This document shows positions 1,600-35,611 of a DNA stretch of 64,000 bases, one piece after another. Below the pieces are notes generated by a model. The model did no database searches and had not been told where the DNA came from. It saw nothing but the letters and a program-made list of their open reading frames with translations. Made by a program: the position numbers and the translations under genes. This DNA comes from Mycolicibacterium porcinum (GTDB lineage Bacteria > Actinomycetota > Actinomycetes > Mycobacteriales > Mycobacteriaceae): NCBI GenBank assembly GCA_002086835.1, contig MVIG01000010.1, positions 1-64,000 of the forward strand. Direction: 5' to 3'. The first letter of the stretch is position 1. Every line of letters begins with the position of its first letter.

Positions 1600-1617
1600 G
1601 CGATCAATCATCGCGTT

Positions 1618-2229: not shown

Positions 2230-2309
2230 CTGCACGCCCACCCGAGCGATTCTGCACTCCGCAACATCCACCGTTGACACCGGCCATCCTCGAGCGCATT
2301 ATTCATCAC

Positions 2310-3847: not shown

Positions 3848-3853
3848 GAAGCC

Positions 3854-4480: not shown

Positions 4481-4684
4481 ACCGGCCAGATCCAGCAGCC
4501 GACGATGCTCGCTGTCGTCCTCGACGGCCACGGCCTCGTCGATCAGCAGCACCGGGATTCCGTCCTCGATCCGGTATGCGCGCCGCAGCCGGGGGTTGTA
4601 GAGCCAGTCCTTACCGGCCAGCAGCAGCGGCCCGCGGTCCTGCGGGCACACCAGGATGCTCAAGAGCTTGTCGTCGACCACCAC
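4463..4684 (-). CDS. Trm112-like zinc-ribbon-type small protein
   Basis: A 73-residue protein of the Trm112/YcaR family. Bacterial members are thought to act as small partner or activator proteins, often for methyltransferases. The family signature is present: LLSILVCPQDRGPL near the N terminus and NPRLRRAYRIEDGIPVLLIDEA. The second pair of zinc ligands found in eukaryotic Trm112 is missing, as is common in bacteria. It starts at GTG 4684, six bases after the upstream secreted-protein gene, suggesting an operon. It corresponds in position to M. tuberculosis Rv1684. A specific partner is not known. Confidence 0.85.
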   Translation of the reverse strand: MVVDDKLLSILVCPQDRGPLLLAGKDWLYNPRLRRAYRIEDGIPVLLIDEAVAVEDDSEHRRLLDLAGSGESG

Positions 4685-4690
4685 GTGAAG

Positions 4691-5200
4691 CTAGCCCAGC
4701 GGGATCTGGATCCCGCCACCGGGCTGAGCACCGCCGCCAGGAATGGGAGCGATGCCTGGATTGACGACACCCTGCTTCGGGATCTGGGCCTGGGACTGCG
4801 CCTGCAACTTGCGCTGGTACGACAGGGTGCTCTTCAGCGCGTCGATCAGCGGAACCTGATTGGGGCGCTTGTCGAGCGCCTTGGTGATGGCCTCACGGTT
4901 GGCGTTCGACGGCTTGAATCCCTGCTGACGCAGCTTGAGGATGTCGTGGATCAACGTCGAGATCTGGCCGCCGCCCTCGCCGGTGTCGTAATCCTTGGCG
5001 ATGATGGACAGAGCTTCGTCCGCGGTCATCTGCGGTGCCGCAGGCGCGTCGGCCGCCGGAGTCGGCTGCGCGGGCGCCACGGGATCGGCGGCCGCCATCG
5101 GCGCACCGGCGCCCACCAGCAGCCCCAGGGCCAGCGCACCGGCCGTCACCGATCCGGTGACGATCCGACGCCAGCTGTGCACACCCGATCCAGATGTCAT
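4691..5200 (-). CDS. Secreted hypothetical protein
   Basis: A 169-residue protein with a clear Sec signal peptide: basic start (SWRRIVTGS), hydrophobic core (VTAGALALGLLVGAGAPM) and a probable cleavage site after AAA before DPVAP. A Pro/Ala-rich linker is followed by a helical domain of about 85 residues (TADEALSIIAKDYDTGEGGGQISTLIHDILKLRQQGF onward), then a Gly/Pro/Gln-rich tail. ATG 5200 was chosen over an upstream in-frame start because GGAGGATCG sits directly in front of it. I do not recognise a family with known function. Its position between the Rv1683-type fusion gene and the Trm112-like gene suggests an operon with them. Confidence 0.8.
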   Translation of the reverse strand: MTSGSGVHSWRRIVTGSVTAGALALGLLVGAGAPMAAADPVAPAQPTPAADAPAAPQMTADEALSIIAKDYDTGEGGGQISTLIHDILKLRQQGFKPSNANREAITKALDKRPNQVPLIDALKSTLSYQRKLQAQSQAQIPKQGVVNPGIAPIPGGGAQPGGGIQIPLG

Positions 5201-5278
5201 CGATCCTCCAGTCGTTCGGCCGTCTGCCGGAGCGTAACAGCGCATTCCCGCTCCGGCACCCCGCCGACAGTCCCGGCG

Positions 5279-8200: not shown

Positions 8201-8299
8201 CAGCACCTCCAAACCGTTCTGCGCGGTCGCCAGCAACCGCTCGACCGGTTTGGTCACTGCCGAGAAATCCACCAGATTGCTCCCCACATCGCAGTTCAC
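5279..8299 (-). CDS. Bifunctional PhaC/lipase-like hydrolase fused to an acyl-CoA-synthetase-like domain (Rv1683 type)
   Basis: Fusion protein of 1006 residues. Residues about 75-370 form an alpha/beta hydrolase resembling PHA synthase/depolymerase: nucleophile Ser156 in GYSQG, acid candidate Asp315 (GEVDD), His344 (RAGHFG). Residues about 450-1000 have the AMP-dependent synthetase layout. The ATP loop, normally a TSGTTGxPKG-like sequence, here reads FSEVGGELVARQ (621-632), and the usual TGD reads STEF (847-850), so activation of fatty acids by this domain is uncertain. The M. tuberculosis relative Rv1683 is annotated as a lipase plus long-chain acyl-CoA synthase linked to triacylglycerol droplets. 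It starts at GTG 8299 and is divergent from an ABC-F gene. Confidence 0.88.
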   Translation of the reverse strand: MNCDVGSNLVDFSAVTKPVERLLATAQNGLEVLRYGGLETGSVPSPFQIIQSVPMYRLRRYFPPDARPGAQDPRPPVLMVHPMMMSADMWDVTRDDGAVGILHAAGIDPWVIDFGSPDKVEGGMQRNLADHVVALSEAIDIVKEVTGRDVHLAGYSQGGMFAYQAAAYRRSKDLASIIAFGSPVDTLAALPMNLPAGVAAGAADFMADHVFSRIDIPGWLARTGFQMLDPIKTAQSRLEFLRQLHDREALLPREQQRRFLSSDGWIAWSGPAIAELLKQFIAHNRMMTGGFSVHGDLVTLSDIDCPILAVVGEVDDIGQPAAVRGIKRAAPDADVYEYLIRAGHFGLVVGSKASTQTWPTVAQWVKWLGGEQMPEGVVPMGSQPADHPEGGVSFSARVTHGATAATEMAFGVARSAADALVTANKNARTLVIETARTLPRLARLGQVNDHTRISLGRIMSEQARSAPNGEALLFDGRVHTYEAVDRRINNVVHGLIDVGVRQGARVGVLMDTRPSALVAIAALSRLGAVAVLLPEADLAEAARLGGVAEIIADPSHLDVARALGTRVLVLGGGESRDLHLEEYDDVASVVDMEKIDPDVVELPGWYRPNPGLARDLAFVAFSEVGGELVARQITNFRWALSAFGTASAANLGRGDTVYCLTPLHHQSGLLVSLGGAVVGGSRIALSRGLQPDRFLQEIRQYGVTVVSYTWAMLREVIDDPSFSLTGSHPVRLFIGSGMPAGLWKRVVDVFEPAQVVEFFATTDGQAVLANVSGAKIGSKGRPLPGSGTVELAAYDADDDLILEDEQGFVRKAEANEVGVLLAHPRGPVDPTAVVKRGVFAPADTWVSTEFLFRRDEDGDYWLVDNRGAVIRTERGPVFATSVNDAVGRLDAVDMSVTYGVEEAGRQLAVTALALRPGGSVPTADLTHALDDLAAGNPPDVVHVVADMELGASFRPVIGPLRAAGIPKAGRRNCWYFDADTGTYKKLTAASRAELVAGAPGDAPETD

Positions 8300-8426
8300 C
8301 CCGACCCCCGATTGACGAGGTCATCATGGCACAACAGCAACCGATCACCGACTCGATCACCCGGACGCCGACAGCCGCCCCATGCGGTGCCGGTGCCGCA
8401 GCCGCCGAACGATAGGGTCGGCGGCG

Positions 8427-10229
8427 ATGGCACACCTGCTCGGGGGCGAAACCCTGCATCTGGAGTACCCCACCGGCGTGGTGTTCGACTCCGTCACCGT
8501 CGGCGTCAGCGAAGGCGACCGGATCGGCATAGTCGGCCGCAACGGCGACGGAAAGTCCACGCTGCTGGGCATGCTCACCGGCCGCATCACCCCGCACGGC
8601 GGCCGCGTGACGCGGCGCAGCGGGCTGCGGGTGGGATCGCTGGACCAGACCGACACGCTCGACCCCGATCACACGGTCGGCTGGTCGCTGGTCGGCGATC
8701 GTCCCGAACACGAATGGGCCGGCGACGCCCGGATCCGCGACGTGATCGGCGGTCTGGTCGCCGACATCCCGTTCGACGCGCCGGTGTCGACGTTGTCCGG
8801 TGGACAGCGCAGGCGCGTGCAACTGGCCGCGCTGCTGATCGACGACTGGGACGTCATCGCCCTCGACGAGCCGACCAACCACCTCGACATCCAGGGCATC
8901 ACCTGGCTGGCCGGGCACATCAAGCAGCGGTGGGCGCGCGGCGCAGGCGGGCTGCTGCTGATCACGCACGACCGCTGGTTCCTCGACGAGGTCGCGACCA
9001 CCACCTGGGAGGTACACGACCGGATCGTGGAGCCGTTCGAGGGCGGGTACGCGGCCTACGTGTTGCAGCGAGTGGAACGCGACCGGCAGGCCGCCTCCAT
9101 CGAGGCCAAGCGGCAGAACCTGATGCGCAAGGAGCTCGCCTGGCTGCGTCGCGGCGCTCCGGCCCGCACCTCCAAGCCCAAGTTCCGGATCGACGCGGCC
9201 AACGCCCTGATCTCAGATGTCCCGCCGCTGCGCAACACCGTCGAGTTGTCCCGACTGGCCACCGCACGGCTGGGCAAGGACGTCATCGACCTGCTCGACG
9301 TATCGGTCACCTACCCCGGCTCACCGGACCGAGAAGTGTTGCGCGACATCGAATGGCGGATCGGACCTGGCGAGCGCACCGGCATCGTCGGCGCCAACGG
9401 CGCAGGCAAGTCCACGCTGCTCGGCCTGATCGCCGGGACCGTGACACCGACCTCGGGGCGGGTCAAACGCGGTAAGACCGTGCGCCTCTCGATCCTCGAT
9501 CAGCAGTCCAGCGAGCTCGACGCGGTGGCCGGGGACATGGTCCGCGAAGTCATCGGCCGGTTGCAGACCAGCTACCAGATCGACGGCAAGGACCTCACCC
9601 CGGCGCAACTTCTGGAGCGCCTCGGCTTCGCCCGCGATCAACTGTCGACCCGCGTCGGCGAGCTGTCCGGCGGCCAGCGCCGCCGCCTGCAGCTCATGCT
9701 GGTGGTCCTCTCGGAGCCCAACGTGCTGGTTCTCGACGAGCCCACCAACGATGTGGACACCGACATGCTCACCGCCACCGAGGATCTGCTGGATTCCTGG
9801 CCGGGCACGCTGATCGTGGTGTCGCACGACCGGTACCTGCTCGAGCGCGTCACCGATCAGCAGTACGCCATCCTGGACGGCCGGCTGCGGCACCTGCCGG
9901 GCGGGGTCGACGAGTACCTGCGGTTGACGGAGCAGCGCGCGGCCTCATCCGCGGCCTCGCCCGGTTCGTCCCCGGCACGTACCGAAACCGCACCGGCACA
10001 GTCGAAGTCGGGTGCGGAGCTGCGCGCCGTGGAGAAGGAGATCTCCTCCATCGACCGGTCGCTGGCCAAGTTGTCCGACCGGATCTCCGCCAAGCACGAC
10101 GAGCTGGCCGCCCACGACCAGTCCGATCATGTCGGGCTGGGAAAGCTCACCGGTGAGCTGCGCGAGCTGGAGGCACAGGTGGCCGAGCTCGAAGCCCGCT
10201 GGATGGAGCTGTCCGAACTGCTGGAGTGA
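8427..10229 (+). CDS. ABC-F family ATPase with two fused nucleotide-binding domains
   Basis: Soluble ABC-F protein, about 600 residues. ABC-F proteins act on ribosomes (translation factors or antibiotic-resistance proteins) and are not transporters. Domain 1 has Walker A GRNGDGKST, signature LSGGQRRRVQLA and Walker B VIALDEPTNHLD. Domain 2 has GANGAGKST, LSGGQRRRLQLM and VLVLDEPTNDVD. The linker between them is charged (the RDRQAASIEAKRQNLMRKEL region). The C terminus is a predicted coiled coil (AEKEISSIDRSL-type repeats to MELSELLE). I place the start at ATG 8427 (MAHLLGGETLHLEY) because the extra 15 upstream residues are arginine-rich read-through. As I recall, the positional relative in M. 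tuberculosis is split into two genes (Rv1668c/Rv1667c); here it is intact. Confidence 0.92.
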   Translation: MAHLLGGETLHLEYPTGVVFDSVTVGVSEGDRIGIVGRNGDGKSTLLGMLTGRITPHGGRVTRRSGLRVGSLDQTDTLDPDHTVGWSLVGDRPEHEWAGDARIRDVIGGLVADIPFDAPVSTLSGGQRRRVQLAALLIDDWDVIALDEPTNHLDIQGITWLAGHIKQRWARGAGGLLLITHDRWFLDEVATTTWEVHDRIVEPFEGGYAAYVLQRVERDRQAASIEAKRQNLMRKELAWLRRGAPARTSKPKFRIDAANALISDVPPLRNTVELSRLATARLGKDVIDLLDVSVTYPGSPDREVLRDIEWRIGPGERTGIVGANGAGKSTLLGLIAGTVTPTSGRVKRGKTVRLSILDQQSSELDAVAGDMVREVIGRLQTSYQIDGKDLTPAQLLERLGFARDQLSTRVGELSGGQRRRLQLMLVVLSEPNVLVLDEPTNDVDTDMLTATEDLLDSWPGTLIVVSHDRYLLERVTDQQYAILDGRLRHLPGGVDEYLRLTEQRAASSAASPGSSPARTETAPAQSKSGAELRAVEKEISSIDRSLAKLSDRISAKHDELAAHDQSDHVGLGKLTGELRELEAQVAELEARWMELSELLE

Positions 10230-10254
10230 CGCACTCCGGCCGTTCGCGGTCCGT

Positions 10255-12968
<2,714 letters not shown>

Positions 12969-12991
12969 GAGCAATCTCCTTGTTTTGAGCT

Positions 12992-13468
12992 CTACTTCAA
13001 GTTCTCGATGGTGGTGGCAAGTTCGGCCCCGGTCATCGGGTCGCGCGCCACCATCAGGATGGTGTCGTCACCGGCGATGGTGCCGACCACATACGGCAGG
13101 GCGGCGCGATCGATCGCGCTGGCCAGGTAATGCGCCGCCCCGGGCGGGGTGCGCAGCACGGCAAGGTTAGCGCTGGCATCGGTCGAGACCAGCAACTCCC
13201 CCAACAAGCGGGTCAACCGCTCGGTGCCGCCGGACACACCCCGCACCGGGCTGCCGTCCTCGGGCACCACATACACGCCGACGCCGCCGTCGGCTCCGCG
13301 CAGTTTCACCGCGCCGAGCTCCTCCAGATCCCGCGACAGCGTGGCCTGGGTGACCTCGATACCCTCCTGGCCCAGCAGGGCGGCCAGTTCGGTCTGGCTG
13401 CTCACCTGCCGCGACGACAGCAGGGCGATGATGCGGGCCTGGCGGCCGGCGCGGGTCGGTGCGCTCAC
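12992..13468 (-). CDS. argR: Arginine repressor
   Basis: Hexameric arginine-responsive repressor of the arginine regulon. The N-terminal winged helix is visible ([52 protein letters not shown], with the SQTEL and TLSRDL motifs). The C-terminal oligomerisation and arginine-binding domain ends in [17 protein letters not shown], where the paired aspartates bind arginine. The frame is open to 13561 but overlaps argF. The GTG at 13468, one base after the argF stop, gives the expected 158-residue protein. Its operator candidates lie in front of argC, so the operon is self-regulated. Confidence 0.95.
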
Positions 13469-13469
13469 G

Positions 13470-15564
<2,095 letters not shown>

Positions 15565-15568
<4 letters not shown>

Positions 15569-16442
15569 GACGGGCTCACCACTTTCGTTCCGGTTCCTTC
15601 ATCGGTGAAAAGCTCGACCAGCACACAGTGTTCGACGCGGCCGTCGATCACGTGCGCGCTCGGCACTCCGCCGGCCACGGCCCGCAGGCAGGCCTCGATC
15701 TTGGGCACCATGCCGGATTCCAGGGACGGCAGCAGCTGCGTCAGCGCCGCGGTGTCGATCTCACTGACCAGGGACGAGCGGTCGGGCCAATCGGTGTACA
15801 GCCCCTCGACATCGGTGAGCATGATCAGCTTCTCGGCGCCCAGTGCCTCGGCCAGGGCCGCGGCCGCGGTGTCGGCATTGATGTTGTGCACCACGCCGTC
15901 AGCGTCGGGTCCGATGGTCGAGACCACCGGAATCCGGCCCGCGGCAATGAGATCCAGCAGCGACTCGGCGTTGACGTGTTCGACGTCGCCGACCAGACCG
16001 ATGTCGGTGGCCACCCCGTCGACCGTGACGCTGCGCCGCACCGCGGTGAACAGATGCGCGTCCTCGCCGGTGAGGCCGACCGCATACGGGCCGTGGGCGT
16101 TGATCAGGTTGACCAGTTCGCGGCCCACCTGACCGAACAGCACCATGCGGGCCACGTCGAGCACCTCGGGCGTGGTCACCCGGAAGCCGCCCTTGAAATC
16201 GCCCGCGATGCCGAGCCTCTTGAGCATCGCGCTGATCTGCGGCCCGCCGCCGTGCACCACGACGGGATGGATGCCGCAGTTGCGCAGGAACACCATGTCG
16301 GCGGCGAAGGCGGCCTTGAGGGTGTCGTCGGTCATGGCGTTGCCGCCGTACTTGACGACGACGATCTTGCCGTGCAGCTGCTTGAGCCACGGCAGTGCCG
16401 AGGCGAGCACCTGGGCCTTGACGCCGCGCTCGATGGCCTGGC

Positions 16443-16446
<4 letters not shown>
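15565..16446 (-). CDS. argB: Acetylglutamate kinase
   Basis: Phosphorylates N-acetylglutamate; this is usually the arginine-feedback-sensitive step in organisms that, like mycobacteria, use the cyclic acetyl route with argJ. Amino-acid-kinase motifs are visible: [10 protein letters not shown] (ATP and phosphate lysine), [10 protein letters not shown] and [12 protein letters not shown]. The N-terminal helix [24 protein letters not shown] is the kind that mediates hexamer formation and arginine inhibition. The start at ATG 16446 forms an ATGA overlap with argJ. Confidence 0.97.
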
Positions 16447-18718
<2,272 letters not shown>

Positions 18719-26055: not shown

Positions 26056-27312
26056 ATGCTTGATTGGTCTGACGTCGACATCGCTGTCCGGGACGCTGTT
26101 CGCGAGTTCGTGGACAAGGAGATCCGGCCCCATCTCGACGAGCTCGAGAGCGGCGACATGGAGCCGTACCCGATCGTGCGAAAGCTGTTCGCCGCCTTCG
26201 GGATCGACGCGCTCGCCAAGGAATCGCTGGACAAGCGGCTGGAGAAACTGCGCAGCGGTGAGGCCAAGCAGTCGGGTGCCCGTGGCGGGATGTTCGGCGG
26301 CAGCGGCTCGCCGGGCATGGGGTTCGTCCTGATCAGCGAACTGTGCCGGGTGTCGATGGGCCTGGTCACCGGGCTGGGCGTGAGCCTGGGCCTGACCGTG
26401 TCGACCATCCAGAGTCGCGGCACGCTGGCCCAGCAGGAGCGCTGGCTGCCCGGTCTGGTGACCTACGAGAAGATCGGCGCGTGGGCGATCACCGAACCCG
26501 ATTCGGGCTCGGATGCCTTCGGCGGCATGAAGTCCTACGTCACCCGCGATGGGGACGATTACATCCTCAACGGCCAGAAGACCTTCATCACCAATGGGCC
26601 CGACGCCGACGTCGTGGTCGTCTACGCCAAGCTCGCTGAGAACACGGCGGGTGATTCCGCTTCAGATCCGCGCAACCGCAAGGTGCTCACGTTTGTGCTC
26701 GACCGCGGCATGGAGGGCTTCGTACAGTCGAAGCCGTTCCGCAAGATGGGCATCCACTCGTCGCGCACCGGCGAACTGTTCTTCAACAACGTCCGGCTGG
26801 GCCGTGACCGGCTGCTCGGCGAGACCGAGGGCTCCGACACCGCGGACGGTGTCGACGAGGGCCGGGCCAGCGCCCGGTCTAACTTCTCGGCCGAACGGAT
26901 CGGGGTCGCCGCGATGGCACTGGGCGTGATCGAGGAATGCCTGCGGTTGAGCGTCGACTACGCCAAGTCCCGCACCCTTTGGGGTCAGGAGATCAGCCAG
27001 TTCCAGTTGATCCAGCTCAAGCTGGCCAACATGGAAGTGGCCCGGATGAACGTGCGCAACATGCTGTTCCGCGTCATCGAATCCGCCGAGAAGGGCGTGC
27101 CGATCTCACTGGCCGAGGCGTCGGCCATCAAGTGGTACTGCTCGCAGGCGGCCACCGACGTCGCGATGGAGGCGGTCCAGCTGTTCGGCGGCAACGGGTA
27201 CATGACCGAGTACCGGGTGGAGCAGTTGGCCCGTGACGCCAAGTCACTGATGATCTACGCCGGCAGCAACGAGGTGCAGATCACCCATGTGGCACGGGGT
27301 CTGCTGAGCTAA
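26056..27312 (+). CDS. Acyl-CoA dehydrogenase
   Basis: FAD-dependent alpha,beta-dehydrogenation of an acyl-CoA, 418 residues. FAD/substrate motifs include WAITEPDSGSDA and GQKTFITNGPDAD. The C-terminal AVQLFGGNGYMTEYRVEQLARDAKSLMIYAGSNEVQ is typical. At the usual catalytic glutamate position of short/medium-chain enzymes there is Ala402 (IYAGS). Glu280 in NFSAERIGVAAMALG instead matches the alternative base position of isovaleryl- and long-chain acyl-CoA dehydrogenases. This points to branched or long acyl substrates. Its pairing with the MpaB-like gene may reflect lipid or sterol side-chain degradation, which is inference. Confidence 0.93.
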   Translation: MLDWSDVDIAVRDAVREFVDKEIRPHLDELESGDMEPYPIVRKLFAAFGIDALAKESLDKRLEKLRSGEAKQSGARGGMFGGSGSPGMGFVLISELCRVSMGLVTGLGVSLGLTVSTIQSRGTLAQQERWLPGLVTYEKIGAWAITEPDSGSDAFGGMKSYVTRDGDDYILNGQKTFITNGPDADVVVVYAKLAENTAGDSASDPRNRKVLTFVLDRGMEGFVQSKPFRKMGIHSSRTGELFFNNVRLGRDRLLGETEGSDTADGVDEGRASARSNFSAERIGVAAMALGVIEECLRLSVDYAKSRTLWGQEISQFQLIQLKLANMEVARMNVRNMLFRVIESAEKGVPISLAEASAIKWYCSQAATDVAMEAVQLFGGNGYMTEYRVEQLARDAKSLMIYAGSNEVQITHVARGLLS

Positions 27313-27713
27313 CCCACGGCGGCCAGCGCGTCGATCTCGACCAGCATGACCTCGTGCGGGAGGTCGACGAACACCGTTGTCCGGCAGGGAAGCTGGTCGG
27401 ATGCGACGTTCTCTGCGATGAACTCGCCGTATACCTCGTTCATCGCCGGGAAGTCCTCCCGCTTGGTGAGGTAGACCCGGAACATCAGGACATCGTCGAC
27501 GCCGGCCCCGCCTGCCGCCAGGATCGCCTTGACGTTCTCCAGTGTCCGGCGGGTCTGCACCTTGACGTCGCCTTCGCCGATGTAGGTGTTGGTCGCGGGG
27601 TCCATCGGCCCCTGCCCCGACACGTGCAGCAATCCGCCCTTACGGATGCCCTGGCTGAAGGTATGCGCCGGCGCTGGTGCGTCTTCGGTGCGGATGACCT
27701 GGGAATCGGACAC
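27309..27713 (-). CDS. RidA family enamine/imine deaminase
   Basis: A 134-residue RidA/YjgF-YER057c-UK114 protein. RidA hydrolyses reactive 2-aminoacrylate-type enamines released by PLP dehydratases. Family blocks HTFSQGIRKGGLLHVSGQGPMDPATN, LENVKAILAAGGAGVDDV and QLPCRTTVFVDLP (with the conserved arginine) are present. GTG 27713, preceded by GAGGAG, is preferred to the longer frame. It lies downstream of the IclR and kinase genes and opposite the PLP enzyme of the same island, exactly the partner such an enzyme would need. Its last four bases overlap the convergent acyl-CoA dehydrogenase gene. Confidence 0.9.
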   Translation of the reverse strand: MSDSQVIRTEDAPAPAHTFSQGIRKGGLLHVSGQGPMDPATNTYIGEGDVKVQTRRTLENVKAILAAGGAGVDDVLMFRVYLTKREDFPAMNEVYGEFIAENVASDQLPCRTTVFVDLPHEVMLVEIDALAAVG

Positions 27714-27760
27714 GATGAGAACTCCTCTGCTTTCGGTGTTTTCGATGGTTTTCGGTCGGG

Positions 27761-28510
27761 CTAGGAAGGGGGCCGGTATCCGCACTCGGCCGAGATGCGT
27801 TCACCCACTGCCTGCAGCGGCGGCAGGAGTTCGAGGACCTGGTCGAAGGGCAGCACCACGTCGGGCACCGACACGGACACCGCGGCGACGACCCGGCCGT
27901 TCGCACCGCGGATCGGCACCCCCACGCAATTGATCGACGGCTCGTTCTCTTCGCGGTCCTGCGCCCAGCCCTGAGCCCGCACGGTTTCGATCTCGCGCAG
28001 GTACGCCTCCGGCGTTGTGATGGTGTTGGCGGCGCGCCGGGTGAAGTCCATCGTGGCGACGATCGACCTCAGCTCGGCGTCGGACAGGTCGGCGAGGATC
28101 ACCTTGGCGACAGCGGTCGAATTCAGGTTGGCGGTCAGGCCGATTCGCGAGTACATCCGGATCTGATCGTGCGATTCGAGCTTGTCGATGTAGACGATGT
28201 CGCCGCCTTCCATCGCGGCGAGGTGCGTGGTGCGGCCGTATTCGCGGTTGAACTCGACGAGATGGCGCGAGGCGATCTGACGGATCTCCCGCTGATCGGT
28301 GCCATGTGCGGCGAGTTCGAAGATCCGTGATCCAAGGTGGTAGCGATTGTTGTTGTCGCGGAACGTGAACCGCTCATCGGACAGGGTGCGCAGCAGCCTC
28401 ATCACGGTGGTCTTGTGCACGTCCGTGGCGGCGGCGAGCTCGTCCAGACTGGCCGGGCCATTGCCGAGCTGAATCAACAGTTGCAGTGCCCGTCCGACAC
28501 TTTGGCTCAC
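27761..28510 (-). CDS. IclR family transcriptional regulator
   Basis: A 249-residue IclR regulator. The N-terminal winged helix spans VSQSVGRALQLLIQLGNGPASLDELAAATDVHKTTVMRLLRTLSDERFTFRDNNNRYHLG. The GAF-like effector domain follows, with DKLESHDQIRMYSRIG, LNSTAVAKVILADLSDAEL and SINCVGVPIRGANGRVVAAVSVS. The start GTG 28510 overlaps the kinase stop as GTGA. IclR proteins commonly control sugar-acid catabolism; here the target is most likely the divergent promoter region near 29.5-29.66 kb, with a sugar-acid intermediate such as KDG as ligand (inference). Confidence 0.93.
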   Translation of the reverse strand: MSQSVGRALQLLIQLGNGPASLDELAAATDVHKTTVMRLLRTLSDERFTFRDNNNRYHLGSRIFELAAHGTDQREIRQIASRHLVEFNREYGRTTHLAAMEGGDIVYIDKLESHDQIRMYSRIGLTANLNSTAVAKVILADLSDAELRSIVATMDFTRRAANTITTPEAYLREIETVRAQGWAQDREENEPSINCVGVPIRGANGRVVAAVSVSVPDVVLPFDQVLELLPPLQAVGERISAECGYRPPS

Positions 28511-29505
28511 CGCCTGCTCCCGCACACGGTGAACCCGGCCTGGCTCACCGCTGTCGCAGCCCACTCCCCGTCCGTGCAGTCGAGCAGATGCTCGACTGCC
28601 GAGTCCGGCGGTGGTGGCGCCGAATCCGCCACGACGGTCAGGGTGACGGCGGCGCCGATGTGCCCGCGCCGCAGACACGATTCCGGATCGTCACCCAGCA
28701 CGACGCCGCTGAGGAAACCGGCGGCAAAGGCATCACCCGCGCCCACCGGCTCCACGACCTCGACGCGCAGGGCCGGAACGGAAATCACATCCCCGGTCCG
28801 GTCGACCGCAAGCGCCTGCTCCGCACCGTCTTTGATGACCAGGGTCTCCGGATTCGGCAGGATGCGACGCAACGCCGCCGGATCGTCGGTCCCCGCGACA
28901 CGGATCGCCTCGTCGGCGCCCACCAGCACCACATCGGCCAGGTTGGCCAGGGCCATCACCTCCGCCGGATCGCCGTCGGGCCACAGCTGTTCGCGCCAGT
29001 TCACATCGAAGCTCAGCAACCCGCTGATTCCCGGGCGGTCGGCGAGCAGCCGGCGCATCATGGCCTGGCAGGTGTCCGACAGGGCCGGGGTGATGCCGCT
29101 GCAGTGCACGACCGAGGCGCGCCCGAAGGCCGACGCGACGGCGGGCGAGTCCAGGAATCCGGGCGTCATCGCCGACGCCGCCGAGCCCGCCCGGTGGTAT
29201 CTGCTGACGCTGCGCAGCTCCCCCGCCTCGTCGGGCGCGGTGTCTTTCGAGTAGTGCCCGGTGGGCCGGGCCGGGTCGATCTCGACCGCCGAGATGTCGA
29301 CCCCGCGCTCCGTCAGCTCCGATCTGATCAGTTCCCCGTACCCGTCGTCACCGAGCCGGCCGACGAAGGCTGCGGGGATGCCCCAGGAGACGAGTCCGGC
29401 CGCAACGTTGGCTTCCGCGCCGGCCAGGTGCAGTTCAGCTTGAGCACCGGCCAGGACCAGGGGTTCCCCGACGCAGACAACTCCGCCGACGGAGTCTGTG
29501 GACAT
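28507..29505 (-). CDS. PfkB family sugar kinase, probable 2-keto-3-deoxygluconate kinase
   Basis: Ribokinase/PfkB-fold kinase of about 332 residues. The N-terminal substrate motif (GAEANVAAGLVSWGIPAAFVGRLGDDGYGE) and the C-terminal ATP/anion-hole motif (VEPVGAGDAFAAGFLSG) are intact. With a KDPG-aldolase-like gene and a GntP permease in the divergent arm, the best substrate is 2-keto-3-deoxygluconate. ATG 29505 has GGGAG eight bases upstream and is preferred to ATG 29568, whose extra codons overlap a palindromic operator candidate. It is the first gene of the kinase-IclR-RidA operon. Confidence 0.87.
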   Translation of the reverse strand: MSTDSVGGVVCVGEPLVLAGAQAELHLAGAEANVAAGLVSWGIPAAFVGRLGDDGYGELIRSELTERGVDISAVEIDPARPTGHYSKDTAPDEAGELRSVSRYHRAGSAASAMTPGFLDSPAVASAFGRASVVHCSGITPALSDTCQAMMRRLLADRPGISGLLSFDVNWREQLWPDGDPAEVMALANLADVVLVGADEAIRVAGTDDPAALRRILPNPETLVIKDGAEQALAVDRTGDVISVPALRVEVVEPVGAGDAFAAGFLSGVVLGDDPESCLRRGHIGAAVTLTVVADSAPPPPDSAVEHLLDCTDGEWAATAVSQAGFTVCGSRR

Positions 29506-29557
29506 TTCGGATACTCCCGTCCCTCGGCGTCGAACGATTGACGCGGTATTGCATGCC

Positions 29558-29608
29558 ATGTTAGACATGTCACATCGTAAATTGCAACTCCGATTGCACT
29601 ATGCGCAA
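29558..29608. promoter_or_regulatory. Candidate operators between the two arms of the sugar-acid island
   Basis: The 170 bp between the divergent kinase and PLP-enzyme genes has two palindromic elements: ATGTTAGACAT (29558-29568, perfect 4+3+4) and the 15-mer TTGCACTATGCGCAA (29594-29608, TTGC/GCAA ends with an imperfect centre). Either could bind the IclR regulator of the island. I could not assign -35/-10 boxes with confidence. Confidence 0.4.
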
Positions 29609-29673
29609 CATAGCAGCTCACGCGATTCCGGCGCTCCCCACGCGCCAGAAACACCATGGAGGACTCGATCGGC

Positions 29674-30981
29674 ATGACGACGCGAGGCGAACCCGCGCTG
29701 GACAGTCGGGCGTGGGACACGCTCCGCGCCGAACGCCTGTCGGAACTGGACAAGGCCCTTCCGGCGGCGGCCGACGGCCTCACCTCCGCCGAGTTCCTCG
29801 CCACCCAGCCCCGGCTCTCGTCCTTCGTCACACCGGTGATGACGCTGGACGATTCGGCTATCGAGGACAACGTGGCCGCCATGGCGGCGTGGTGCGCCGA
29901 GCACGGGGTGGAGTTGGCCCCGCACGGGAAGACCACCATGTCGCCGGTCCTGTGGGACCGCCAATTACGCAGCGGCGCATGGGGTATCACGCTGGCCACG
30001 CCCAGTCAGGTCCGTGTCGGGGTGAGTTTCGGCGTTCGGCGGATCCAGCTCGCGAATACCCTGGTCGACCCGACCGCCCTGCGCTGGCTGGCCCGGGAGA
30101 TGGCCGCCCGGCCCGACCTCGAGGTGCTCAGCTGGGCGGACTCGACGGAAACCGTGGACGCGATGGCTGCGGCACTCACCGAAACCTCGGTGGCACGGCC
30201 GATTCCGGTGCTCGTCGAGTTGGGTGCGCCCGGCGGCCGAACCGGCGCCCGGTCGGTCGACGAGGCCGCAGCCGTGGCCGCGCGGATCGCTGACACCGAC
30301 ACCCTGCGCCTGGCCGGCGTTTCGGGCTACGAGGGATCGCTGGCACACGACGCTTCCGAGGCCTCCCTGTCCCGCGTCAGGCACTACCTGGAGGACATGG
30401 CTCGCCTACACCAGACCATCGAGGCCGACGGGCTCTACCCCACCGGTGCCGATGTCTACGTAACCGCCGGTGGTAGCGCCTATTTCGATCTCGTGGCGGA
30501 TGTCCTGGCCCCGCTGGCCGGTGGCCGCACACACGTCGTGGTCCGCGCGGGGGCCTACATCATCCACGACGACGGCTTCTACACGGGGATCACGCCGTTC
30601 GGCCGCGGCACCGAGCCGTACCGGCTTCGGTCGGCGATGCACACCTGGGCGCGGGTGGTGTCCCGCCCCGAACCCGGACTGGCCCTGCTGGACGCCGGAA
30701 AGCGTGACGTCCCGTTCGATGAGGGGCTGCCCACGCCGCAACTGGTCGCGCCGCAACTCGGTGCACCGGCCCGACCTCTCAGGGATGCCGAGATCGTGGC
30801 GGTGAACGACCAGCACGCATTCCTGACCATCCCGCCCGACTCCGACATTCGCGTGGGCGACGTGGTCCGCCTCGGGCTTTCGCACCCCTGCACCGCCTTC
30901 GACAAGTGGCGATGGATCCCGGTGGTGGCGCAGCAGGAAACCGATCCCGTCGTCGTCGACCTGATCCGTACCTACTTCTGA
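29674..30981 (+). CDS. DSD1-like fold-type III PLP enzyme (D-serine/D-glucosaminate dehydratase-like)
   Basis: A 435-residue enzyme of the alanine-racemase-fold D-threonine aldolase/D-serine dehydratase (DSD1) group. Lys86 in LAPHGKTTMSP is the expected PLP lysine. His404 and Cys406 (LSHPC) match the zinc pair of eukaryotic D-serine dehydratase. These enzymes eliminate ammonia from beta-hydroxy D-amino acids. Beside KDG kinase and KDPG aldolase genes, a good substrate is D-glucosaminate (2-amino-2-deoxygluconate), which would give 2-keto-3-deoxygluconate. D-serine and D-threonine remain alternatives. ATG 29674 is chosen because GGAGGA lies 10 bases upstream; ATG 29656 lacks a ribosome-binding site. 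Confidence 0.85.
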   Translation: MTTRGEPALDSRAWDTLRAERLSELDKALPAAADGLTSAEFLATQPRLSSFVTPVMTLDDSAIEDNVAAMAAWCAEHGVELAPHGKTTMSPVLWDRQLRSGAWGITLATPSQVRVGVSFGVRRIQLANTLVDPTALRWLAREMAARPDLEVLSWADSTETVDAMAAALTETSVARPIPVLVELGAPGGRTGARSVDEAAAVAARIADTDTLRLAGVSGYEGSLAHDASEASLSRVRHYLEDMARLHQTIEADGLYPTGADVYVTAGGSAYFDLVADVLAPLAGGRTHVVVRAGAYIIHDDGFYTGITPFGRGTEPYRLRSAMHTWARVVSRPEPGLALLDAGKRDVPFDEGLPTPQLVAPQLGAPARPLRDAEIVAVNDQHAFLTIPPDSDIRVGDVVRLGLSHPCTAFDKWRWIPVVAQQETDPVVVDLIRTYF

Positions 30982-30994
30982 GCTCGGATCAGTC

Positions 30995-32602
30995 ATGCGC
31001 ACATTGATCCGCTCCGCCACCGTCGTCGACGGCAGCGAGTCCCCCCGGTATGACGCCGATGTGCTGATCGACGACGACCGCATCGCCGCCATCATCACCG
31101 AACCCGCGGATTCGCCGACCGCCGACCGCGTGATCGACGCCTCCGGCCTGGTGCTCGCGCCCGGATTCATCGACATGCATGCACATTCGGATCTGCAGAT
31201 CCTGCTCACCCCGGTGCACCCATCGCGCATCACCCAGGGCGTCACCACCGAGGTACTCGGGCAGGACGGGCTGTCGTACGCGCCGGTGACTCCCGAGGTG
31301 CTTGCCGTCGTCCGCCGCAAGATCGCCGGCTGGAACACCGACCCCAGCGACTTCGACTTCGACTGGCGATCCGTCGCCGAGTACCTGGACCGCCTCGACC
31401 GCGGAATCGCCACCAACGTCGCCTATCTCGTCCCACACGGCGTCGTCCGCGCCCTGGTCGTCGGCTGGGACGACGTCCCTGCCACCGCCGCGCAGATCGC
31501 CGAGATGCAAACCATCGTGGCTCGGGCCATGGCCGAGGGAGCCGTCGGCTTGTCCGCCGGGTTGACCTACACGCCAGGGATGTACGCCGACAACGACGAA
31601 CTCCTCGCGCTGTGCCGCACGGTGGCGTCATACGGCGGCTACTTCTCACCACACCATCGGTCCTACGGTGCCGGCGCCATCGAGGCGTACGCCGAGATGG
31701 TCGACCTCTCCGCCAGATCTGGCTGCCCACTGCACCTGGCCCACGCCACCCTGAACTTCGGTCCGAACAGGGGCCGGGCACCTGAACTCCTGGCCCTGCT
31801 CGACGCGGCGACCGCCGCCGGCGCAGACATCAGCCTCGACACCTACCCGTATCTGCCTGGAGCCACCACGCTTTCGGCGATCCTGCCCAGCTGGGCGTCC
31901 GCCGGAAGCACCGAAGAGACCATGGCGCGGCTCACCGACCCCGACGCGCTGGCCCGGATCCGCCACCACCTGGAGGTCAGCGGCTCCGACGGCTGTCACG
32001 GCGTGGTCGCCGAATGGGGCACCATCGAGATCAGCGGTGTCACCCATCAGGACCTGGATCACCATGTGGGCCGCACGATCGCGCAGATCGCGGCGGCCGA
32101 GCAGCGTGATGCGTTCGACGTGTGCGTCGACATCCTGCTGCGCGACGAGCTGGGTACCGGGATCTTGCAGCATGTCGGGCACGAGGAGAACGTGCAGGCG
32201 ATCATGCGGCACCCACGGCACACCGGGGGCAGCGACGGGCTGCTGGTCGGGTCTAAACCACATCCGCGCGGCTGGGGAACTTTCGCGCGCTACCTGGGCC
32301 ACTACTGCCGCGACCTCGGCCTGTTCTCGCTCGAGGAATGCGTCGGCCACCTCAGTGGGCGGGCGGCCACCCGGCTCCGGCTCGCCGACCGCGGATTCAT
32401 CCGTCCCGGGTTCGCCGCCGATCTGGTGCTGTTCGATCCCGAAACCGTCGCCGACACCGCTACTTACGAACAACCCCGCACCGCGGCAACCGGATTCACC
32501 CATGTCCTGGTGCGCGGACAGTTCGCCCTCGACGACGGCGAGCTCACCGGGGTGACAGCAGGACGGTCGCTGCGACGCGGCCCCGACGGAGGTGTGCAAT
32601 GA
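30995..32602 (+). CDS. D-aminoacylase / N-acyl-D-amino-acid deacylase-like amidohydrolase
   Basis: A 535-residue metal-dependent amidohydrolase. It has the N-terminal beta-sandwich, the HxH metal motif His62/His64 (GFIDMHAHSD), the D-aminoacylase block VGLSAGLTYTPGMYA, and a C-terminal strand domain (IRPGFAADLVLFDPETV). In D-aminoacylases a cysteine of an NCG motif bridges the metals; here the same spot reads GQDG (Asp91), so the metal site and probably the substrate differ. In this island the likely job is removal of an acetyl group from N-acetyl-D-glucosaminate or a related D-configured amide. It is 13 bp after the PLP-enzyme gene and overlaps the aldolase gene as ATGA. Confidence 0.85.
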   Translation: MRTLIRSATVVDGSESPRYDADVLIDDDRIAAIITEPADSPTADRVIDASGLVLAPGFIDMHAHSDLQILLTPVHPSRITQGVTTEVLGQDGLSYAPVTPEVLAVVRRKIAGWNTDPSDFDFDWRSVAEYLDRLDRGIATNVAYLVPHGVVRALVVGWDDVPATAAQIAEMQTIVARAMAEGAVGLSAGLTYTPGMYADNDELLALCRTVASYGGYFSPHHRSYGAGAIEAYAEMVDLSARSGCPLHLAHATLNFGPNRGRAPELLALLDAATAAGADISLDTYPYLPGATTLSAILPSWASAGSTEETMARLTDPDALARIRHHLEVSGSDGCHGVVAEWGTIEISGVTHQDLDHHVGRTIAQIAAAEQRDAFDVCVDILLRDELGTGILQHVGHEENVQAIMRHPRHTGGSDGLLVGSKPHPRGWGTFARYLGHYCRDLGLFSLEECVGHLSGRAATRLRLADRGFIRPGFAADLVLFDPETVADTATYEQPRTAATGFTHVLVRGQFALDDGELTGVTAGRSLRRGPDGGVQ

Positions 32603-33228
32603 CAGCGCTCGACGTGTTGCGGTCGGATCGTGTGCTCAGTGTGGTTCGGGCCGAGACGATTCCGGACGCGGCCGACCTGTGCCACGCGATCGCGGCGGGC
32701 GGAATCCGCACCGTCGAATTGACCTTCACCACCCCCGGGGTGCTGGACCATCTACGGTCCTGTGCCGATTCGGTGTCCGGTGCCGGGATCACATTGGGCG
32801 TCGGCACGGTGATGACCGCCGATCAGGCCCGCGCCGCCATCGACGCCGGTGCCCGCTTCCTGGTCACCCCCGGCCTGCGTCCCAAGGTCGCCGAGGTCGC
32901 CATCTCCCGATCGGTGCCGGTGTTTCTCGGCGCCCTCACCCCCACCGAAGTGGCCCAGGCGGTCGATCTCGGATCCGCTGCGGTGAAGATCTTCCCGGCC
33001 AGCAGTATGGGTCCGAAATATTTGTCGGATCTCCGTGGGCCATACCCCGACGTCGAGTTGCTGCCGTCCGGCGGGATCAACGAGGGCAATGCCCGGGCCT
33101 ATCTCGAGGCCGGCGCCCTCGCAGTGTGCGCCGGTACCGGCGTGGTCCCACCGGCCCATGTCGCCGCCGGAAACTGGGGCGAGATCACCGGCCGGGCACG
33201 CAATTTCGTCGCAGCTCTATCCCGCTGA
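32599..33228 (+). CDS. KDPG/KHG aldolase family protein
   Basis: A class I aldolase of 209 residues, the usual length for 2-keto-3-deoxy-6-phosphogluconate aldolase. The Schiff-base lysine is Lys130 (GSAAVKIFPAS). The acid/base glutamate is Glu40 (RTVELTFTTPG). The phosphate/carboxylate-binding GVGTVM and LLPSGGINEGNARAYLEAGA blocks are present. It would cleave KDPG to pyruvate and glyceraldehyde 3-phosphate, ending the pathway predicted for the island. The start ATG 32599 overlaps the deacylase stop (ATGA). Confidence 0.9.
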   Translation: MTALDVLRSDRVLSVVRAETIPDAADLCHAIAAGGIRTVELTFTTPGVLDHLRSCADSVSGAGITLGVGTVMTADQARAAIDAGARFLVTPGLRPKVAEVAISRSVPVFLGALTPTEVAQAVDLGSAAVKIFPASSMGPKYLSDLRGPYPDVELLPSGGINEGNARAYLEAGALAVCAGTGVVPPAHVAAGNWGEITGRARNFVAALSR

Positions 33229-33273
33229 GCCTCACTCCCCATCCCAGATCCTCGCCCACGCCCAGGAGGATTC

Positions 33274-34665
33274 ATGACCTCGTTCGTGCACTGGCTGCAA
33301 CACGACACGTCCGGCCTGCTGACGCTGGCCGCGGTGTCGATCGCCGTGCTGCTGTTGTTGATCATCAAGCTCAAACTCGAACCGTTCATCGCCCTGATCG
33401 TGGTCAGCATCGCGGTCGCGCTGATCGCCGGGATCCCGGTCTCCGATCTGGTCGGCACTCCCGCCAAGGCCTCGGACTCCCTGTTGGAGAAGGGGTTCGG
33501 CGGGATCCTCGGTCACATCACCGTGATCATCGGGCTCGGCACGGTGCTCGGGGCGATGCTCGAGCGCTCCGGCGGTGCCGACGCGCTGACCACCCGACTG
33601 CTGAACCTGTTCGGCCCCAAGGGCGCCCCGCTGGCTATGGGTCTGACCGGCGTCGTGCTCGGGATCCCGATCTTCTTCGACATCGGCATCTTCATCCTGG
33701 CTCCGCTGGTGTACGTGGCGGCCAAGCGCGGCGGCAGATCGCTGGTGATGTACGCGATGCCGATGCTCGCGGGCCTGTCGATGACGCACGCGTTCCTGCC
33801 GCCCCACCCCGGTCCGGTCGCTGCCGCCGGCCTGCTGCACGTCAGCCTGGGGTGGATCATCATCATGGGCCTGGCCTGCGGCATCCCGGCCTGGTTCGTC
33901 TCCGGCGTGGTCTGGGGTTCGTGGATCGGTAAGCGGATACAGGTCGAGGTTCCGGACGAGTTCATCCCCGAGGAGGACGAGGCCGACACCGCCAATCCCC
34001 CGTCGATCGGGTTGATCGCCTTCATCATCCTGGCCCCGATGGCGCTGATCCTGGCCGCGACCATCGCCGACGTCATGCTCGACGGCGGCCGGCTGCTGTC
34101 GATCCTGACCTTGGCCGGGACGCCGGCCGTTGCCCTGACCATCGCGGTGCTGCTCGCGCTCTACCTGTTGGGGATCCGCCGGGGCGTCTCCGCCTCCGAA
34201 CTCGGCAAGATCAGCGCGGCCTCACTGCGCCCGGTCGGCATGATCCTGCTGGTGGTGGGTGCCGGCGCGTTCTTCGGTGCGGTGTTGCGCGCCACCGGCA
34301 TCGGCACGGCACTCGCCGACTCCATGACCGCCATCGGCCTGCCGGTGATCCTGTCGGCCTATCTGATCAGCTGCGCGCTACGGATCGCGCAGGGCTCGGC
34401 GACCGTGGCGATCGTGACGACGGCGGGCATCATCGAGACATCCATCGCGGCAGGCAATTACAGCCCGGCACAGATCGCCCTCATCGTGGTCGCGGTGTCC
34501 GCCGGCTCCATCGTCGCCAGCCACGTCAACGACGGTGGATTCTGGATCGTGTCAAGGTATTTCAACATGTCGGTGAAGGACACCCTCAAGACCTGGACCG
34601 TGCTGGAGACCATCCTGTCGGTGGTCGGTTTCGCCATGGCCGGCCTGCTCTGGCTGGTGGTGTGA
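33274..34665 (+). CDS. GntP family sugar-acid permease
   Basis: A 463-residue membrane transporter with about 12-13 hydrophobic segments, beginning with LLTLAAVSIAVLLLLIIKLKLEPFIALIVVSIAVALIAGI. The GntP family takes up gluconate and related aldonic acids (some members take D-serine). Conserved blocks GKGFGGILGHITVIIGLGTVLGAMLERSGGAD, GIPIFFDIGIFILAPL, LPPHPGPVAAA and VSAGSIVASHVNDGGFWIVSRYF are intact. A strong AGGAGG precedes ATG 33274. As the last gene of the forward arm it presumably imports the substrate; D-glucosaminate or its N-acetyl form fits. Confidence 0.92.
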   Translation: MTSFVHWLQHDTSGLLTLAAVSIAVLLLLIIKLKLEPFIALIVVSIAVALIAGIPVSDLVGTPAKASDSLLEKGFGGILGHITVIIGLGTVLGAMLERSGGADALTTRLLNLFGPKGAPLAMGLTGVVLGIPIFFDIGIFILAPLVYVAAKRGGRSLVMYAMPMLAGLSMTHAFLPPHPGPVAAAGLLHVSLGWIIIMGLACGIPAWFVSGVVWGSWIGKRIQVEVPDEFIPEEDEADTANPPSIGLIAFIILAPMALILAATIADVMLDGGRLLSILTLAGTPAVALTIAVLLALYLLGIRRGVSASELGKISAASLRPVGMILLVVGAGAFFGAVLRATGIGTALADSMTAIGLPVILSAYLISCALRIAQGSATVAIVTTAGIIETSIAAGNYSPAQIALIVVAVSAGSIVASHVNDGGFWIVSRYFNMSVKDTLKTWTVLETILSVVGFAMAGLLWLVV

Positions 34666-34803: not shown

Positions 34804-34832
34804 GGGCCGGCTCAGCCGAGCTGCGCCGGCCC
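34804..34832 (-). terminator. Hairpin at the end of the infC-rpmI-rplT-tsnR operon
   Basis: Arms GGGCCGGC (34804-34811) and GCCGGCCC (34825-34832) form a perfect 8 bp GC-rich stem with a 13-base loop. The stem begins at the tsnR stop codon. There is no clear U tract, which is common among mycobacterial terminators. Confidence 0.5.
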
Positions 34833-35611
34833 TAGGCGCGGTGGGCGCGGGCGCTCTGATACAGGCAGATCGACGCCGCCGAGGCGATGTTGAGGCTCTC
34901 GGAGTGACCGGGCATCGGAATGTGCACCCGATGGTCGGCAGCGGCGGCCAATTCGGTTGGCAGACCGTGGGCTTCGGGGCCGAACAGCCAGGCGGTGGGC
35001 CCGGCGAGGTCGGCATCGTCGAGGCTGACCTCGCCGTCGATCGTGGTGGCCAGCACCTGCAATCCTGCCGCCTGCAACCGTGCGACGGTGGCGGCCTCGT
35101 CGGGCTCGGCGATCACCGGCAGCGAGAAGATACTGCCCGCCGACGCCCGCAGGCACTTGCTGTTGTAGGGGTCGACGCTGTTGCCTGCCAGCACCACCGC
35201 GTCGGCACCCATCGCATCGGCCGCGCGGATCAGTGTGCCTGCGTTGCCCGGCTCCGAGGTCTGCACGGGCACCGCGATCAACCGGGGCGCGGTGGCCAGC
35301 ACGTCGTCGAGAGTGGTCTCCGGCAGCCGGCACACGGCCACCAGGCCGACGGGGGTCACGGTGTCGGACAAGGCTTTCGCCGCGCGTTCGGTCACCTCGT
35401 ACACCGGGGCGTCGGCGAGCAGATCGGCGAACCGGTCGATTGCCGCCGCGGTGGCGAACACCTCGGAAACGAGTCCGCGCCGCAACGCTGACTCGACGAG
35501 GTTGGGCCCTTCGGCGAGAAAGCGTGCGGCGCGGCGACGTGCGACGGCGCGATGCAGCTTTACGGCTGCGGCGACGCGATCAGCTCGCTCGGTGAGCGGA
35601 CTGATGGTCAG
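34832..35611 (-). CDS. tsnR: SpoU/TrmH family rRNA 2'-O-methyltransferase (TsnR-like)
   Basis: SPOUT-fold RNA methyltransferase. The N-terminal L30e-like substrate domain reads [38 protein letters not shown]. The catalytic knot has [31 protein letters not shown] and [22 protein letters not shown], which are SPOUT motifs 1-3. No ATG, GTG or TTG start includes the N-terminal domain; the first is TTG 35485. A CTG at 35611 overlaps the rplT stop as CTGA and restores the full domain, so I place the start there. The coding frame and family are secure; the start is inferred. Confidence 0.82.

Follow-up and report, generated by a model that had tools for sequence, protein, structure and literature searches.

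A candidate island for N-acyl amino sugar acid catabolism in Mycolicibacterium porcinum and its actinobacterial relatives

What nutrient would a mycobacterium degrade with an aldonate permease, a D-aminoacylase-like deacylase, a pyridoxal phosphate (PLP) lyase, a sugar kinase and an aldolase? The question is raised by seven genes in a stretch of 64,000 nt of Mycolicibacterium porcinum DNA (assembly GCA_002086835.1, contig MVIG01000010.1, positions 1 to 64,000 of the forward strand), termed here the window and belonging to a genome of 6.96 Mb in 102 contigs. The open reading frames (ORFs) of the window form a seven-gene island of two divergent units, located between genes for an acyl-CoA dehydrogenase and a SpoU rRNA methylase. 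The leftward unit encodes RidA, an IclR regulator and a PfkB kinase, and the rightward unit a DSD1-type PLP lyase, a D-aminoacylase-like deacylase, a 2-keto-3-deoxy-6-phosphogluconate (KDPG) aldolase and a GntP permease. We consider it about three in four probable that the island serves the catabolism of an N-acylated 2-amino-2-deoxy aldonic acid. The most likely substrate is N-acetyl-D-glucosaminate (GlcNAc1A), which C1-oxidised chitin yields as its monomer.

Gene content and predicted route

Relatives of the island were collected by scanning named contigs with patterns derived from actinobacterial deacylases. This gave at least 480 confirmed relatives, of which the best 80, all from actinobacteria, were kept. 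A gene was counted as present at a locus on a match of 30 bits or more, and loci cut by contig ends were scored as misses. The features of the island are as follows; the gene limits follow our reading of the start codons, and are hence likely rather than fixed.

27309..27713, minus strand: RidA/YjgF-type enamine/imine deaminase, with a probable role like that of OngD in the marine pathway discussed below (PF01042 Ribonuc_L-PSP, 105.8 bits; 74/80 relatives)
27761..28510, minus strand: IclR-family regulator, presumed repressor of both units (IclR_C, 155.1 bits, and HTH_IclR; 75/80 relatives)
28507..29505, minus strand: PfkB-family kinase, presumed 2-keto-3-deoxygluconate (KDG) kinase (PF00294, 142.9 bits; 74/80 relatives)
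29594..29608, no strand: 15-bp palindrome TTGCACTATGCGCAA, presumed IclR operator of the divergent promoters (sole match in the window; site in 98/107 clusters)
29674..30981 (the ORF opens at 29656), plus strand: DSD1/D-serine dehydratase-type PLP lyase, presumed D-glucosaminate ammonia-lyase (PF14031 D-ser_dehydrat, 79.8 bits)
30995..32602, plus strand: D-aminoacylase-like amidohydrolase of a branch with a putative aspartate metal ligand, presumed N-acyl-amino-sugar-acid deacylase (Amidohydro_3, 136.3 bits)
32599..33228, plus strand: KDPG/KHG aldolase, Eda (Aldolase, 152.7 bits; TIGR01182 eda, 186.8 bits against a cut-off of 156.05)
33274..34665, plus strand: GntP-family aldonate:H+ symporter, presumed N-acyl sugar acid importer (PF02447, 429.7 bits; TIGR00791 gntP, 381.9 bits against a cut-off of 292.75; 53/80 relatives)

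All seven proteins score well over the Pfam cut-offs, and the start codon of the aldolase overlaps the stop codon of the deacylase. An initial annotation had placed seven genes of one pathway at these positions; all the ORFs are present, and their labels agree with the Pfam and NCBIfam models.

The gene families and their linkage are evident in the sequence, and from them each reaction, as well as the substrate, can be predicted. GntP would import the N-acyl sugar acid, and the amidohydrolase would strip the acyl group to leave D-glucosaminate. The PLP lyase would then eliminate across C2–C3 to give KDG and ammonia, with RidA hydrolysing the enamine/imine. Phosphorylation of KDG by PfkB would generate KDPG, which the aldolase would split into pyruvate and glyceraldehyde 3-phosphate. 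IclR, bound to the 15-bp palindrome, would keep the two units repressed as long as no intermediate of the pathway is available. Actinobacteria with a fuller gene complement have the palindrome also in front of genes for GH20 or sugar ABC import, or in front of a KDPG aldolase gene if their cluster has none. The succession of import, deacylation, ammonia elimination to KDG, phosphorylation and aldol cleavage is the one first put forward in the initial annotation, and it is supported; its enzyme families match those of a marine pathway described in PMC9537276.

Among the 80 loci the lyase is present in all, IclR in 75, RidA and PfkB in 74 each, GntP in 53 and the KDPG aldolase in 21. The complete set of seven genes is found in 12, the remainder having fewer. 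Chance clustering of the seven genes is ruled out by the conservation of the set both in the genus and elsewhere.

The palindrome at the cluster and elsewhere

The gap between the divergent kinase and lyase genes contains a palindrome that is conserved in the alignment of the genus loci. In the window TTGCANNNNNYGCAA occurs once, at 29594–29608, where 0.09 occurrences are expected. The pattern TTGCR-N5-YGCAA was scanned over 107 clusters (the 80 and 27 others), a site being counted from −250 to +200 of the start of the lyase ORF. By this automatic count a site lies near the lyase start in 98 of the 107, and these make up 98 of the 114 palindrome matches in 1.84 Mb of cluster loci. In six of the nine automatic misses (L097, L124, L136, L175, L181 and L190) the ORF start is over-extended and the site is in the right gap. 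As a control, the 80 named loci were shuffled once by mononucleotides, which left seven matches in 1.33 Mb. We infer that IclR binds the palindrome and represses there.

The palindrome is also placed before other genes. The two Actinokineospora loci each have a second copy immediately ahead of GH20, and Amycolatopsis suaedae has one ahead of the gene of an SBP_bac_1 sugar-binding protein. The strict form TTGCA-N5-TGCAA was scanned in ten of the eleven probable Streptomyces genomes with a strong deacylase match (G643 was left out), giving 23 sites compared with 7 for the reversed control. The cluster accounts for eight of the sites. Among the remaining 15, three are followed by an unlinked KDPG aldolase gene and two by the gene of a sugar-binding protein. 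Among the matches listed for the eight named genomes, the aldolase site is seen again in Streptomyces antibioticus, and a site before a binding-protein gene in S. tendae and in S. flaveolus. All four aldolase genes preceded by the palindrome match PF01081, and the one tested passes TIGR01182 eda (257.3 bits). Thus the gene that is missing from those Streptomyces clusters carries the palindrome of the cluster elsewhere, and this is in our view the strongest evidence for a route through KDPG.

Some further sites have other settings. The palindrome TTGCATGGTATGCAA is located at L309:3036 and L313:2981, in two probable Streptomyces genomes. In L309 it has a TetR-type gene on one side and a phosphoketolase gene on the other, which is also the setting of an off-cluster strict site of G538 that precedes no match to the query set. 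In S. antibioticus a comparison of positions puts none of the five palindrome sites, among the matches listed, near its four LPMO_10 genes. Amycolatopsis orientalis (G683) has 50 palindrome matches compared with 3–4 for the reversed pattern, mostly TTGCAAATTTTGCAA and close forms on many contigs. They represent either a repeat of another kind or the target of another regulator, and the extra sites of this species were left out of the evidence for a regulon.

Relation to the marine ong pathway and the likely substrate

The closest described system is the ong pathway of oxidative chitin utilisation in Pseudoalteromonas prydzensis and marine Gammaproteobacteria. According to the available text of PMC9537276, on which all statements about that work rest, Pseudoalteromonas requires every one of the deacetylase, PLP lyase, RidA and KDG kinase to grow on GlcNAc1A, and kdgA joins the ong cluster in Vibrio, Klebsiella and Serratia. 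The island encodes a D-aminoacylase-like deacylase, a fold-III PLP lyase, RidA and a PfkB-type kinase together, as do ong clusters, and has in common with some of them the KDPG aldolase. It has GntP and IclR where ong has the SSS symporter OngIT and a MurR/RpiR regulator; the TonB receptors of ong are absent from the island, as is a counterpart of the GH20 enzyme OngA. Identities between window proteins and those of the P. shioyasakiensis ong cluster are 30.8% for the deacylase, 36.5% for the lyase, 33.0% for RidA (with OngD, over 100 residues) and 25.7% for the kinase. The published survey of ong clusters required at least four homologues above 30% identity to those of P. prydzensis and found Gammaproteobacteria and one Betaproteobacterium (PMC9537276); because of the above identities it would probably miss the window cluster.

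The deacylase was modelled with a pLDDT of 84.8 and a pTM of 0.87, from an alignment that omitted L145, which has a stop within the given coordinates. The top nine matches of the model in the PDB are D-aminoacylases, N-acyl-D-amino-acid or N-acyl-D-glutamate deacylases, or OngB. The protein has the amidohydrolase fold, catalytic aspartate and HxH motif of the subtype V D-aminoacylases (AfDam and BbDam). It shares with PpOngB, the GlcNAc1A deacetylase (PDB 9kb1 and 9kb3; PMC12017989, text available in part), the fold and nine residues, these being His68, His70, Tyr194, His222, His252, Tyr285, Asp368, Leu370 and Arg379 in PpOngB numbering. Eight further residues differ. Cys97, Leu116, Glu226, Lys254, Ser290, Ser291, Ser292 and Gln298 of PpOngB are replaced by Asp, Thr, Tyr, Thr, Gly, Ala, Thr and Arg respectively, where the positions within the insertion domain rest on a divergent and less certain alignment. 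The subtype V enzymes have a cysteine metal ligand and use Lys254 to anchor the carboxylate, while the window deacylase has Asp and Thr there. In alignment A1 the aspartate is present in 12 of 12 rows and the threonine in 11 of 12, the exception being L103. A study of N-acyl-D-amino acid deacylases reportedly included Sco4986 of Streptomyces coelicolor.

The closest PDB entry to the lyase is the D-serine deaminase 3gwq (E = 2.1e-69). With this family, which includes OngC, the lyase has in common PF14031, similarity over a long region and the HxC (SHPC) motif, of which His410-Pro-Cys412 is invariant in 13 aligned proteins. The HxC motif binds zinc in chicken D-serine dehydratase. In trees that are unrooted and approximate, the cluster deacylases form one clade with a single further member, L104 (support 0.993), and OngB pairs with a Comamonadaceae D-aminoacylase-like protein bearing AfDam-like residues (support 0.999). 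The actinobacterial lyases, including the lone paralogue found in the genus, are split from OngC and its neighbours with a support of 0.982 in a tree drawn without seven class C sequences. The window deacylase and lyase are thus outside the OngB and OngC clades, and we read the trees, with that caution, as recruitment of the two enzymes separately from the ong pathway. Membership of the ong cluster proper is ruled out by the deacylase residues, the trees, the importer and the regulator.

Elsewhere a PLP lyase converts an amino sugar acid into a 2-keto-3-deoxy product, as predicted for the island, in a route described in the available part of PMC9529869; that lyase belongs to another family and acts on the 6-phosphate, whereas the island model puts the lyase before the kinase. 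Literature searches found no actinobacterial version of the pathway, with most subscription papers outside their reach, and it is not described in the available parts of PMC12343721 (haloarchaea), PMC8222616 (IclR motifs) and PMC11653859 (Aeromonas).

The neighbours of the cluster in other genera point to chitin. Genes for a PF10282 lactonase, an ABC sugar-binding protein and a GH20 hexosaminidase follow it at four Amycolatopsis and two Actinokineospora loci, as assigned by Pfam for L127, L131 and part of L176 and by similarity for the others; GH20 is present at 6 of the 80 loci. The Actinokineospora loci also carry a GntR/UTRA regulator. In Saccharopolyspora the lactonase is present, with no match to GH20 or to the binding protein. 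The Vibrio ong cluster similarly contains GH20 and a PF10282 lactonase (L111:15846–16874), and the words lactonase and lactone are absent from the main text of PMC9537276. Since GlcNAc1A occurs both as the open acid and as the 1,5-lactone (PMC12017989, available text), the combination of lactonase, hexosaminidase and deacylase fits oxidised chitooligosaccharides. LPMO_10, the domain of lytic polysaccharide monooxygenases (LPMOs), is found in 10 of 14 cluster-bearing genomes of other genera, chosen from the 80. The mycobacterial island looks like the monomer end of such a system, with the chitin link clearest in other genera. With neither an LPMO nor a GH20 match in the window genome, the source of the sugar acid would be external; breakdown of chitin by the organism itself is ruled out on the same ground.

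We lean, with rather less assurance than for the island itself, towards a broader view that actinobacteria possess their own oxidative-chitin regulon, assembled apart from marine ong. It would comprise the Asp-for-Cys branch of D-aminoacylases, another DSD1 branch, and an IclR whose TTGCR-N5-YGCAA operator joins sugar ABC import, GH20 and the KDPG aldolase. LPMO-bearing Streptomyces and their relatives may use their own oxidised chitin, and some mycobacteria, having neither LPMO nor GH20, may have just the monomer end and depend on material that other organisms set free. LPMO genes occur in those 10 of the 14 genomes, whereas the route published for degradation of the oxidised product was found only in Proteobacteria (PMC9537276, available text). 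A conserved actinobacterial set with its own operator would show where the carbon and nitrogen of oxidised chitin can go in soil. Proteins that at present carry the labels D-aminoacylase and alanine racemase would gain a function, and the range of nutrients used by some mycobacteria would widen by an unexpected one. The marine pathway is already known; the prediction here is of an oxidised-chitin regulon across actinobacteria, which offers a precise test with one operator, one regulator and one predicted inducer.

Several observations weigh against the assignment of the island to GlcNAc1A or against the regulon. The deacylase lacks determinants of OngB (Ser290 is Gly, Ser292 is Thr, Glu226 is Tyr and the position of Gln298 is Arg), and is changed at four positions that are reportedly invariant in OngB and the D-aminoacylases (Cys97, Lys254, Ser291 and Leu116). 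The best NCBIfam models for the kinase and IclR, KDG/2-keto-3-deoxygalactonate (KDGal) kinase and KdgR, are both below cut-off (139.1 versus 400 bits and 163.4 versus 275 bits, respectively). PfkB is missing from 6 of the 80 loci, three of which (L118, L151 and L168) are not cut there. No palindrome is present in 3 of the 107 clusters (L045, L104 and L187), nor before GH20 or the binding protein at L131, L137 and L140, which are three of the six GH20-bearing loci; and ten of the 15 off-cluster strict sites precede no match to the query set. In the window genome the palindrome is not in excess, with 8 sites compared with 13 for the reversed pattern, and a genome-wide regulon in this organism is thus unsupported. 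The adjacency of GH20 and lactonase is given as raw locus counts. LPMO_10 and GH20 have no match in the window genome; LPMO_10 is also missing from all 11 further genus genomes that have the cluster wholly or partly, and from the tested Tsukamurella, Pseudonocardia, Arthrobacter and Nocardia, which include the clusters closest to that of the window. GH20 likewise gave no match in any of the 16 genus genomes examined for it, of which 12 have at least part of the cluster and four have none.

The exact acyl sugar acid is inferred only, because the deacylase is without the published signature for GlcNAc1A. The same chemistry might act on another N-acyl 2-amino sugar acid, such as N-acetyl-D-galactosaminate, N-acetyl-D-mannosaminate or a glycolyl-substituted form; a galactosaminate variant would yield KDGal and its 6-phosphate (KDPGal) in place of KDG and KDPG. 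The pocket of the deacylase, being unlike that of OngB, would allow this, and neither GH20 nor the KDG/KDGal kinase model is a stereospecific label. Both sugar-binding proteins tested match best to a galactooligosaccharide-binding model, far below its cut-off, and an ong-type set in Klebsiella has KDGal-type kinase and aldolase annotations. We nevertheless think such a substrate unlikely, given that the window aldolase reaches 186.8 bits with the curated eda model, which it passes, compared with 100.1 bits for 2-dehydro-3-deoxy-6-phosphogalactonate aldolase, that the Streptomyces aldolase tested under the palindrome also passes eda, and that LPMO_10 is frequent in the cluster genomes of other genera. 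The Klebsiella set referred to is that of K. pneumoniae (L114:6565–13826), where kinase and aldolase are annotated for the galactonate series and the deacylase is in two ORFs.

If the substrates were N-acyl-D-amino acids (D-serine, D-threonine or a 3-hydroxy-D-amino acid), their breakdown would employ the deacylase, PLP enzyme and RidA, leaving the kinase, aldolase and GntP to serve something else. The kinship of the lyase with D-serine deaminase would suit this, as would the action of the relatives of the deacylase on N-acetyl-D-amino acids, the lyase relatives accompanied by amino-acid ABC importers on Klebsiella and Pantoea plasmids, and the three uncut loci without a kinase. OngC also acts on D-serine and D-threonine (PMC9537276, available text), and therefore activity of the PLP enzyme on these two, which the initial annotation had proposed as a deciding assay, cannot settle the substrate. 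The presence of PfkB in 74 and GntP in 53 of the 80 loci argues against this role, and a 2-amino sugar acid is favoured over D-serine or D-threonine because the palindrome also precedes GH20, sugar-binding-protein and unlinked KDPG aldolase genes; we judge the D-amino acid role improbable. A gluconate or KDG utilisation island of Entner–Doudoroff type, in which deacylase and lyase are mere passengers, is more improbable still. GntP, PfkB, Eda and a KdgR-like IclR would fit it by themselves, but Pfam identifies no sugar acid dehydratase or gluconate kinase among the seven genes, and in the deacylase-centred set it is the lyase that is the most constant partner (80/80) while GntP and Eda vary. 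Moreover two genus genomes without the deacylase and GntP at the locus keep the lyase, kinase, aldolase, RidA and IclR.

Distribution within and beyond the genus

The candidate island for N-acyl amino sugar acids has a patchy distribution in the genus. With the window lyase as query, 117 of 297 genus genomes have a match at E up to 1e-40: eleven with an identity of 70% or more (the window included), two at 57%, and the rest at 51% or less. Eight of the eleven (the window and G230 counted) have all seven genes in the same order beside SpoU. In G230 the lyase ORF (L046:8793–9920) is open but shortened in frame, with a net loss of ∼84 residues as judged by two match positions. In G070, also one of the eleven, the lyase is a fragment at a contig end, where the gene set cannot be judged. 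The two genomes mentioned above that lack the deacylase and GntP at the locus are G021 and G176; in G021 a hemerythrin-domain gene (L038:11315–11797) is located between the aldolase and SpoU, in the place of GntP in the window. The flanking genes in the window are as follows.

26056..27312, plus strand: acyl-CoA dehydrogenase, left flank, outside the island
34832..35485, minus strand: SpoU rRNA methylase (PF00588), right flank, outside the island

In all seven island-less genus genomes examined, these two genes adjoin with no island gene between them; the spacing is <0.1 kb in five and ∼0.6 kb in the two closest, G020 and G049. Among the eight genomes with the complete set beside SpoU, no acyl-CoA dehydrogenase is found on the left in G109, G212 and G087, where an MPAB-like gene is directly there instead. 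G290 has all seven genes at another location, with none of the flanking genes within the 19 kb read. The genes lysX, infC and rplT lie near the island in the window, in an order that we take to be mycobacterial. In G295 an IclR gene and the genes of an amino-acid-type ABC importer (SBP_bac_3, an ATPase and two permeases) accompany the lyase, kinase and aldolase, and the 19 kb read contains neither deacylase nor GntP. This content fits what use of free D-glucosaminate would probably need.

Across the phylum, 396 genomes were searched with the deacylase as query at E up to 1e-80, and 29 have a match. Fifteen of these (that of the window included) are below E = 1e-160, and the lyase adjoins the deacylase in 14 of the 15, the exception being L103. 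The strong matches include 11 genomes of one probable Streptomyces genus, plus G570 of another genus. Six neighbourhoods (L105–L110) of the 14 weaker matches were checked and the cluster was found in none; in two of them a neighbouring gene weakly resembles the lyase (74 and 61 bits). All seven genes are present on one Tsukamurella plasmid and on one Arthrobacter plasmid. Streptomyces clusters are usually without the aldolase, and those of Kribbella and Kitasatospora have the aldolase, with no GntP seen. The initial annotation had suggested looking for the set in Streptomyces and Rhodococcus; it is present in many Streptomyces and other actinobacteria, and Rhodococcus is not among the 80 loci kept.

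The exceptional L103 (G660, 960–18575) contains two deacylases, one of Asp type and one of Cys type, together with RidA, PfkB, a KDPG aldolase (Eda), a galactonate dehydratase and a sugar ABC importer. In this distant relative DSD1 is replaced by a DgaE-like lyase (NF047797, 205.6 bits against a cut-off of 600) paired with the same type of deacylase; it is another lyase within the same predicted pathway logic. Outside the actinobacteria, RidA, IclR and all components of an amino-acid ABC importer accompany a DSD1-like lyase in Klebsiella variicola and on a Pantoea plasmid (L086:3171–9146 and L087:3299–9260). These sets are possibly for free D-glucosaminate or for a D-amino acid.

The window lyase is the only match in its own genome at E up to 0.001. 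Elsewhere in the genus a second DSD1-like lyase, 44–51% identical to that of the window, is common, with about 100 of the 297 genomes having one as judged by identity. In L047, L048 and L055 it is beside a lysyl-tRNA synthetase-like gene, without kinase or deacylase, and in L047 it is also beside pantothenate genes.

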